A stretch of DNA of 38,073 nucleotides, taken from positions 1-38,073 of the forward strand of contig SVGO01000011.1 in assembly GCA_015056305.1 (NCBI GenBank). The letters are read 5' to 3'. Source of the DNA: Clostridiales bacterium. GTDB taxonomy: Bacteria > Bacillota > Clostridia > Christensenellales > Aristaeellaceae. Made by a program: the position numbers and the translations under genes. Positions within the stretch are counted from its first letter, which is position 1. Every line of letters begins with the position of its first letter. Positions 1,737-33,605 of the stretch are shown piece after piece. The notes beneath the pieces are model-generated. The model saw only the letters and a list, made by a program, of their open reading frames with translations, had not been told where the DNA came from and searched no databases.

Positions 1737-1825
1737 GGGGGACGTTAGGGCTGCCGCCCTAAAACCCGCCTGGGGACCAGTCCCCAGACCCCTTCTTCGC
1801 TTCGCGTTGTTTGAAGAAGCCTATA
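1737..1825 (-). repeat. Modular palindromic intergenic repeat, locus 1 inverse arm
   Basis: Minus-strand CGCGAAGCGAAGAAGGGGTCTGGGGACTGGTCCCCAGGCGGGTTTTAGGGCGGCAGCCCTAACGTCCCCC; same scaffold as 15723-15800, 21350-21428, 33303-33380. Confidence 0.85.
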
Positions 1826-1866: not shown

Positions 1867-1879
1867 TGCTTTCTCTCTT

Positions 1880-2056
1880 AAAGCCGCCGCGAAGCGGAAA
1901 AGGGAGTTTGAGGGATGAAATCCCTCAAGCAGGTCTTCGGGGACCGAAGCCTGCCGCGCCCAGTGGGCGAAACAGGCAGGCGGAGCGTCGGGAATCGCAA
2001 GGAGCAGCAGAATGCTGCGACTATGCGAGTTCCCCGGATGGCAGCCCTATCGTTCC
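1880..2056 (+). repeat. Long form of the modular palindromic repeat, locus 1 outward arm
   Basis: AAGCCGCCGCGAAGCGGAAAAGGGAGTTTGAGGGATGAAATCCCTCAAGCAGGTCTTCGGGGACCGAAGCCTGCCGCGCCCAGTGGGCG...GCAGCCCTATCGTTCC; near full-length homolog of the reverse complement of 15487-15663. Confidence 0.88.
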
Positions 2057-2057
2057 T

Positions 2058-2877: not shown

Positions 2878-3044
2878 GGGACGTTGGGGCCTCAGCCCCA
2901 AACCCCGACAAGGGACTTCGCCCCTTGACCCCATGTTCTAGGTCGCTTGCATAGTTGCGCAAGCGCTCCTTGCAGCTCCCGACGCTCCGCCTGCCTGCTT
3001 GCGTCACTGGCGGCGGCAGGCTCCAGTCTCGCGGCGGCTTGAAG
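2878..3044 (-). repeat. Modular palindromic repeat, rearranged/degenerate copy (locus 2)
   Basis: Minus strand shares GCCTGCCGCCGCCAGTG..GCAAGCAGGCAGGCGGAGCGTCGGGA..GCAAGGAGCGCTTGCGC with the long form, joined to a short-form scaffold (GGGGTCAAGGGGCGAAGTCCCTTGTCGGGGTTTGGGGC...GCCCCAACGTCCC). Confidence 0.82.
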
Positions 3045-13381: not shown

Positions 13382-13439
13382 AAAAACAAAAGAAGCTCTG
13401 ATTTCTCAAAGCTTCTTTTTCTGGCGCAGAAGGAGGGAT
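13382..13439. repeat. 58-bp direct repeat, copy 1 (terminator hairpin plus tRNA-Ser 3' end)
   Basis: AAAAACAAAAGAAGCTCTGATTTCTCAAAGCTTCTTTTTCTGGCGCAGAAGGAGGGAT, identical to 13543-13600 (offset 161 bp). Confidence 0.93.
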
Positions 13440-13530
13440 CTTGCCCCTCGCTGCGGCTCGGGCTGGATCGGCTCTGACGTGCCACTGGCACGTCATTCAC
13501 TCCCGATCCGTTCAAATCCCACTTCGTCCT
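13425..13530 (-). pseudogene. Truncated tRNA-Ser 3' end fused to a structured GAGTGAA-module
   Basis: Minus strand AGGACGAAGTGGGATTTGAACGGATCGGGAGTGAATGACGTGCCAGTGGCACGTCAGAGCCGATCCAGCCCGAGCCGCAGCGAGGGGCAAGATCCCTCCTTCTGCGCCA; only the acceptor/T-arm end is tRNA-like. Confidence 0.75.
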
Positions 13531-13542
13531 AAAGAAGCTCTG

Positions 13543-13600
13543 AAAAACAAAAGAAGCTCTGATTTCTCAAAGCTTCTTTTTCTGGCGCAGAAGGAGGGAT
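13543..13600. repeat. 58-bp direct repeat, copy 2 (overlaps the intact tRNA-Ser 3' end and its terminator)
   Basis: Identical to 13382-13439. Confidence 0.93.
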
Positions 13601-13674
13601 TTGAACCCTCGCGCCGCTTCACGCAGCCTACTCCCTTAGCAGGGGAGCCCCTTCGGCCTCTTGGGTACTTCTGC
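13583..13674 (-). tRNA. tRNA-Ser(GCT)
   Basis: Reverse complement GCAGAAGTACCCAAGAGGCCGAAGGGGCTCCCCTGCTAAGGGAGTAGGC...GAGGGTTCAAATCCCTCCTTCTGCGCCA; long variable arm; anticodon GCT. Confidence 0.94.
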
Positions 13675-15486: not shown

Positions 15487-15663
15487 GGGTAACGTTAGGG
15501 CTGCCATCCGGGGAACTCGCATAGTCGCGCAAGCGCTCCTTGCGATTCCCGACGCTCCGCCTGCCTGCTTCCGCCACTGGCGGCGGCAGGCTTCGGTCCC
15601 CTAAAACCTGCCTGAGGGGGCATCGCCCCTCAGACTCCCTTCTCCGCTTCGCGGCGGATTCAA
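15487..15663 (-). repeat. Long form of the modular palindromic repeat, locus 3 outward arm
   Basis: Minus strand AATCCGCCGCGAAGCGGAGAAGGGAGTCTGAGGGGCGATGCCCCCTCAGGCAGGTTTTAGGGGACCGAAGCCTGCCGCCGCCAGTGGCGG...GGATGGCAGCCCTAACGTTACCC. Confidence 0.88.
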
Positions 15664-15676
15664 GAAAGATATCCGA

Positions 15677-15707
15677 AAAATGCCCCCGGCAGAGCCGGAG
15701 GCATTTT
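15677..15707. terminator. Bidirectional-looking Rho-independent terminator
   Basis: AAAATGCCcCCGGCagaGCCGGaGGCATTTT. Confidence 0.85.
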
Positions 15708-15722
15708 ATGATATAAATTCTT

Positions 15723-15800
15723 AAAGCAGATGCGAAGCGAAAATGGGGTCTGGGGAGATATCCCCAGGCGGGGTTTGGGGCCTGCGGCCCCAACGCCCCC
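15723..15800 (+). repeat. Short form of the modular palindromic repeat, locus 3 second arm
   Basis: AAAGCAGATGCGAAGCGAAAATGGGGTCTGGGGAGATATCCCCAGGCGGGGTTTGGGGCCTGCGGCCCCAACGCCCCC. Confidence 0.85.
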
Positions 15801-21349: not shown

Positions 21350-21428
21350 CCCTAAGGGATGCGTTGGGCTGCCGCCCAAACCTGCTTGGGGACATCGCCC
21401 CCCCTTCTTCGCTTTGCGCCGTTTTACG
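21350..21428 (-). repeat. Modular palindromic repeat, short form (locus 4)
   Basis: Minus strand AAAACGGCGCAAAGCGAAGAAGGGGGGGCGATGTCCCCAAGCAGGTTTGGGCGGCAGCCCAACGCATCCC. Confidence 0.78.
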
Positions 21429-32820: not shown

Positions 32821-33291
32821 ATGGAGAACCGCAATATGCCCGTCGTTCCGCTGCCCAATCCAGGCGAGGGCGGCGCCGTCTTCCCCGGCAATGAGAATAC
32901 CGGCGCCATACCCGTCATTCCTCTGCCCAACCCTGGTGAGGGCGGCGCCGTAAACCCCGGCGGCATCATTCAGCCGCTGCCCAATATCACCATTACTGTG
33001 CCTGTTCGCTACGCAGCGGTGCGCTTTCTGAACGCAACGCACGGCTACCCGGCCTTCCGGATCCTCATCGACGGCGTTCGCGCTGCCAATCTGCTCGACG
33101 CGGGCAGCGCCACCGGCTACATCCGCATTCCTGCCGGCAGCCGCACGATCACCGTCGCCGGACAGGACGGCTATATCTATCTTGAGCAGGCGCTCCCCTT
33201 CGCCGCATCGACCACGTCCACGGTCGCCATCATCAACCATGCAGGCGGCCTCACGCTCACGAAGATCGCGGACGCATGCCGGGTGGTGTGA
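32821..33291 (+). CDS. DUF4397-like domain protein with N-terminal PLPNPGEGGAV repeats
   Basis: ATG 32821 with upstream GGAAGGAG; MPVVPLPNPGEGGAVFPG / IPVIPLPNPGEGGAVNPG; then VRFLNATHGYPAFRILIDGVRAANLLDAGSATGYIRIPAGSRTITV. Confidence 0.75.
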   Translation: MENRNMPVVPLPNPGEGGAVFPGNENTGAIPVIPLPNPGEGGAVNPGGIIQPLPNITITVPVRYAAVRFLNATHGYPAFRILIDGVRAANLLDAGSATGYIRIPAGSRTITVAGQDGYIYLEQALPFAASTTSTVAIINHAGGLTLTKIADACRVV

Positions 33292-33302
33292 GGGGGGATG
33301 AT

Positions 33303-33380
33303 GGGACGTTAGGGCTGCCGCCCTAAGACCCGCCAAGGGACTTCGCCCCTTGACCCCATGCTTGCTTCGCGGCGGTTTTA
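33303..33380 (-). repeat. Short form of the modular palindromic repeat (locus 5 inverse arm)
   Basis: Minus strand ACCGCCGCGAAGCAAGCATGGGGTCAAGGGGCGAAGTCCCTTGGCGGGTCTTAGGGCGGCAGCCCTAACGTCCC. Confidence 0.85.
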
Positions 33381-33393
33381 AAATGTTTATGCA

Positions 33394-33424: not shown

Positions 33425-33444
33425 ACAGTATAGATGTTTAATCC

Positions 33445-33605
33445 CGCTGCAAAGTGAAGAAGGGAGTCTGAGGGTTCGGATTCTCCGAACCGGGACAGGA
33501 GTGAATGACAGCTAAGCAGGGCTGTCAGAGCTGTCCTGAACGACGAGCGTCGAGCGAGGAGATAGAAATCCCTCAGGCAGAGGCTTGGGCGATAGCCCAA
33601 CGTCT
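33445..33605 (+). repeat. Modular palindromic repeat with GAGTGAA-module nested in its first hairpin (locus 5 outward arm)
   Basis: AAGTGAAGAAGGGAGTCTGAGGG-[~95 nt insert]-CCCTCAGGCAGAGGCTTGGGCGATAGCCCAACGTCTCC. Confidence 0.82.

Follow-up and report, generated by a model that had tools for sequence, protein, structure and literature searches.

The question raised by this locus is why two long repeats in one contig of a Clostridiales bacterium differ on both sides of their stems at once. The window, that is the whole stretch of 38,073 nucleotides that was analysed, holds both copies, and an earlier note had read such paired changes as the pattern expected if secondary structure is under selection, or is generated by a structure-dependent copying mechanism. 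The two copies are indeed related, 15491-15665 (minus strand) aligning with 1876-2057 (plus strand) at 86% identity over 179 nt by BLAST, and the three stem exchanges are all present in the sequences: TTTGAGGGAT/ATCCCTCAA against CTGAGGGG/CCCCTCAG, CGCCC-AGT-GGGCG against CCGCC-AGT-GGCGG, and GCAGCA-gaa-TGCTGC against GCGC-tt-GCGC. They do not, however, belong to a single unit. The long form combines a palindromic host repeat of ~75 nt (A) with an inner two-hairpin element of ~95 nt (B); the TTTGAGGGAT stem is part of A, whereas the other two are part of B. The features are collected in Table 1.

Table 1. Repeat A and element B in the window (positions of the window; P1 and P2 are the two hairpins of B).
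Feature	Position	Strand	Remarks
Composite long-form copy 1	1876..2057	+	Element B inserted in the second hairpin of repeat A
5' part of A, copy 1	1877..1940	+	Includes first A hairpin, TTTGAGGGAT-gaa-ATCCCTCAA
B copy 1	1941..2037	+	117.6 bits against model R1
Sub-parts of B copy 1	P1 1942-1989, P2 1990-2034	+	3' tail CGG
Apical stem-loop (tip) of B copy 1, hypervariable	2004..2018	+	GCAGCAGAATGCTGC
3' part of A, copy 1 (ATGGCAGCCCTATCGTTCC)	2038..2057	+	Continuous with A in the empty site L168
Composite long-form copy 2 (studied repeat)	15491..15665	-	B within the second hairpin of A
5' part of A, copy 2	15600..15665	-	Hairpin CTGAGGGG..CCCCTCAG
B copy 2	15508..15599	-	106.3 bits against R1
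Apical tip of B copy 2	15527..15536	-	GCGCTTGCGC
3' part of A, copy 2	15491..15507	-	Sequence and BLAST alignment of copies
Third B copy, degraded	2938..3029	-	67 bits; within another A-like repeat, downstream part 2868-2937
A lacking B, in opposite orientation to copy 1, on the far side of a terminator-like hairpin	1741..1816	-	A match
A lacking B, in opposite orientation to copy 2, on the far side of a terminator-like hairpin	15720..15795	+	A match
A without B	21359..21425	-	A match
A without B	33305..33381	-	A match
A, partial	33438..33491	+	A match
A, partial, 3' half	33563..33605	+	A match

Repeat A is a chain of small hairpins (GCGCGAAGCG... CTGAGGGA..TCCCTCAG ... TTTGGGC..GCCCAA-CGT) and is often solitary: eight A matches lie in the window, and 334 distinct copies were counted over all the stretches examined. 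At 1741-1951 and at 15589-15795 inverted A pairs flank a terminator-like hairpin. Other repeats of the window are a 70-nt direct repeat at tRNA-Ser genes (13382-13451 and 13543-13612, 94% identical) and two 54-nt repeats 72 nt apart (32836-32961, 83% identical), possibly a coding tandem repeat.

That B is a discrete insertion is directly visible from sites in which it is missing. The related genome G017 has a site orthologous to that of window copy 1 (L168) where A is intact, the flanks are nearly identical and there is no B, and one intergenic site was found in three states, with nothing in L067, A only in L257 and A plus B in L085. The G017 site orthologous to the degraded third copy also carries A alone. 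The hosts of B, again as directly observed, are mostly G-rich palindromes, among them both A hairpins, the GAAGGG stretch of A and other palindromes; of 134 copies, 129 have two or more G residues immediately to the left of B and 115 have CGG immediately to its right. With GG on both sides the insert boundaries are ambiguous by a few bases, and within that uncertainty no clean target duplication was seen. Among 56 orthologous comparisons, 23 showed neither repeat, 21 showed A only and 12 (about six sites) had B on both sides; the B-B pairs inspected had differing insertion points or subfamilies, and none of the sites inspected held a B insertion common to two species.

B folds as two adjacent hairpins on one strand, P1 (GAC(C)-GGA-GCCTGCC-CGCCC-AGT) followed by P2 (GGGAA-TCGCA-AG-GA-apical stem-GA-CT-A-TGCGA-TTCCC). 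Both arms have in common a purine-rich motif, GGAGC facing GC-G(G)A, which lies beside the distal stem, and the distal stems are free in sequence provided that pairing holds. When 52 copies were aligned using MAFFT without structural guidance, standard pairs filled 97.4% of 1,634 cells, changes on both sides were seen at 22 of 32 pairs, and 18 of the 26 non-tip pairs covaried; none of 500 shuffles reached any of the measures, and sliding the 3' partners by 1-3 columns as a control left only 26-46% pairing. Essentially the same fold was returned by RNAalifold without prompting. We also ranked all column pairs under a tree-aware null of our own, in which the top 11 of 4,465 were all proposed base pairs; this null is conservative at the pair level (E about 0.05 or less for the top four pairs only), and we therefore rely on the ranking together with the shuffle and slid controls. 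Many extra copies came from a pattern scan which fixed parts of P2 and left the P1 stems and the tip free, thus the P2 stems are under-tested within the genus; P2 is variable too in the copies found by BLAST and in other families. Selection on structure, as had been proposed, fits the body stems, which are directly seen to stay paired despite sequence change, and the covariation persisted with more copies, whose divergence was large enough to reveal it.

The tip of P2 was analysed separately. About 75 distinct tip sequences occur among 150 B copies, nearly all of them self-complementary and nearly all copies having tips of 10 to 16 nt; counting each distinct tip once, 392 of 406 tip stem positions are Watson-Crick. 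The other ~81 nt of B do not track the tip. Pairs of copies with identical bodies numbered 23 across genomes against 0.46 expected (~50-fold) and 10 within genomes against 0.12, the expectation being obtained by shuffling columns inside genomes with base pairs kept together; fully identical copies had been removed, hence the within-genome count of 10 says nothing on tip retention. The tip differences are directly observed to be wholesale: of the cross-genome identical-body pairs 0 of 24 had a common tip, and 75% differed by five edits or more, like random pairs. Within one genome, half of the identical-body copies share their tip, which indicates that tips are inherited yet replaced fast. As stepwise compensation is not expected to alter both arms and the length of a tip next to 81 unchanged nt, these patterns suggest that tips are exchanged in blocks. 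The second proposal of the earlier note, structure-dependent copying, fits this apical stem, and we infer it from the pattern of identical ~81-nt bodies bearing unrelated self-complementary tips. A role of the tip as target guide was rejected, its match to the element's own flanks (5.19) being like that to permuted flanks (5.20).

Could the exchanges simply reflect subfamilies that duplication and gene conversion have spread, in the absence of any selection on structure? Subfamily motifs do recur, A variants recur at many places, and half of the identical-body copies within a genome have the same tip; nevertheless the changes on both sides of most pairs, the poor pairing in the slid controls, the top ranking under the tree-aware null and the pairing that is also kept by relatives in other families, although the model fitted it in part, make this very improbable.

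B is abundant in its own genome (G000), with at least 51 BLAST matches, and BLAST was positive in 14 of 24 further genomes from the genus and in 0 of 16 other genera sampled. Using a covariance model, clearly diverged relatives were detected in eight other genomes of the order, which represent another genus of the same family and four other families, most of them lying in other families; these relatives retain AAGGAG-stem-CGACTAT and GAAGCCGAGCGC-hairpin, and their host repeats differ. The carriers are Clostridia/Clostridiales MAGs, mostly from animal gut, and the compared genomes are draft assemblies in many contigs. The plasmid and phage collections searched gave 0 matches to B. One viral contig did match (L279, IMGVR_UViG_3300029305_008512): at 775-995 it has two truncated B 5' parts in tandem and then a complete B, with joints GGAG/GGAC, a hint that the tip region of B is a rearrangement hot spot.

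A fold kept in this way could also belong to an RNA, B being a structured 3' UTR or small RNA whose spread is a by-product. Stem covariation and conserved purine-rich internal loops would both be expected of such an RNA, and G.U-type departures are in excess, since non-Watson-Crick departures in the B stems, in the orientation drawn, were G.T in 50 cases and A.C in 23 (p=0.002); in unpaired columns C>T exceeds G>A 1.41-fold, which accounts for part of that excess. B also avoids divergent intergenic regions, so most copies could be transcribed: with genes called by our own codon-usage script, 71 of all 356 intergenic regions were divergent, and the count for B was 0 of 51. On the other side, the orientation of B relative to genes is unbiased (21:16), orthologous sites can be without B, the inspected sites gave no insertion common to two species, and Rfam at the gathering threshold identified tRNAs alone in the window and no family matching B, with weak chance-level matches only at a relaxed threshold. 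We consider an RNA function unlikely to be the reason for the fold. Because orientation to genes is unbiased, the preferred strand is that of B itself, and a single-stranded intermediate explains the folded strand better than read-through transcripts; this is only suggestive of the folded strand being a single-stranded intermediate of B.

An element of the IS200/IS605 type would be biased in orientation with respect to replication; as judged by GC skew (weak, and read on draft contigs), no such bias was apparent for B, with 85 of 158 copies in the genus and 6 of 12 in distant carriers. On loci over 6 kb the G-rich strand carries A in 203 of 301 copies (p about 1e-9) and B in only those 85 of 158.

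Several enzymes were considered as movers of B. Y1/RAYT was rejected because neither the distribution among carriers nor the element ends fit: a Y1 transposase was not detected in the B carriers G011, G021, G089, G071, G157, G142 and G099 (94-97% complete), and B-like ends were present at 0 of 30 Y1 loci. The own genome's only Y1/RAYT is a pseudogene with its own GTAG-type REP. This locus, L137 (G000:C97:16924-17187), is a RAYT-like gene with an internal TAG, the REP (GTAGGGGAGGGGCTCTGCTCCTCCC) lying next to and inside the reading frame, and uninterrupted relatives of the gene are found in L152 and L163. Absence from a draft genome is weak evidence singly, yet here it is repeated in several carriers of 94-97% completeness. 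B might still be REP-type or derived from IS200/IS605 and owe its movement to a Y1 (HUH) transposase absent from the draft assemblies, as its two subterminal hairpins on one strand, its conserved left flank without clean target duplication and its irregular stems, of the sort that TnpA-REP and single-strand transposases read (PMC8266576), would allow. Given the undetected Y1 genes, the lack of matching ends, a genus RAYT that has a GTAG-type REP of its own and no apparent strand bias for B, we regard this as quite improbable.

Reverse transcriptase and IS110 were rejected too, each being undetected in key carriers: RVT_1 had no match in G000 nor in the near-complete carriers G018 and G021, and an IS110 transposase was found in 0 of 14 B carriers. 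Retrotransposition of an RNA copy would agree with the preference for a folded strand and with insertion without obvious target duplication; with the RVT_1 result in those genomes, it is the least credible of the readings considered.

Comparison with known systems places B outside the described GTAG and CGTC REP classes. REP elements are found where the neighbouring genes are co-directional or convergent and seldom where they diverge (PMC3733652), and B resembles the RAYT-moved GTAG REP/BIME/REPIN elements in being a short, intergenic, high-copy palindrome with irregular stems that is rarely found between divergent genes. It differs from GTAG REPs in its length of ~95 nt and its two hairpins in the same direction, and from GTAG REPs and REPINs in its GGAG/CGTC consensus, which has no unpaired GTAG tag at the hairpin foot, and in RAYT being undetected in several carriers. 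CGTC-tagged REPs are without a known dedicated transposase, and some REP dimers lie inside other palindromes (PMC3733652). B shares with them the CGTC (at the foot of P2), the lack of a known dedicated transposase and the nesting in palindromes; however, while their CGTC is unpaired, in B its GTC pairs with GAC and covaries, the stems are longer than their 8-9 bp with a 4-5 nt loop, P2 has an internal loop and bulges, and the tail is CGG instead of CCA-like. Specific insertion into palindromic repeats is also known for the REP-targeting insertion sequences IS1397, ISKpn1 and IS621 (PMC1525189), although B, at ~95 nt, encodes nothing and an IS110 transposase was detected in none of 14 carriers. 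A minimal IS200/IS605 element would have two subterminal hairpins on one strand, as B has in P1 and P2, but no partner TnpA with matching ends was found at the 30 Y1 loci. Bacterial MITEs are, like B, non-autonomous, high in copy number and structure-forming, and so are bcr1-like repeats. In contrast to a classical MITE, the ends of B (GACC.. and ..TTCCCCGG) are not terminal inverted repeats and the fold is two side-by-side hairpins; a clear target duplication is not visible, given the GG on both sides and the ambiguous boundary. A description of the B family was not found in the literature searched, which was limited to open-access papers.

Taken together, the B copies probably make up a new mobile-repeat family, non-autonomous, dependent on hairpins and REP-like in function. 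A putative trans-acting enzyme would read the folded B strand by its shape and purine motifs and insert it into the 5' arm of a further hairpin, beside a run of G residues; under such recognition the stems would stay paired and the sequence of the tip would be unconstrained. Renewal of the tip may take a single step, either through template switching among identically flanked copies or through repair of an opened hairpin that serves as its own template. More specifically, tips might be rewritten in one step at mobilisation through self-templated hairpin synthesis by an enzyme outside the RAYT, reverse transcriptase and IS110 classes, a tentative idea that we think rather doubtful. If it were true, each jump could create a fresh palindrome while the remainder of B stayed as it was.

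Spanning several families within one order, the B copies provide a large data set that includes clean empty sites and nested targets. They amount to a natural experiment, a single hairpin tip being randomised against a fixed remainder, which separates the features read by the putative machinery (stems and purine internal loops) from the tip sequence that it ignores, and they allow hairpin-dependent mobility and the en-bloc renewal of palindromes to be tested directly.
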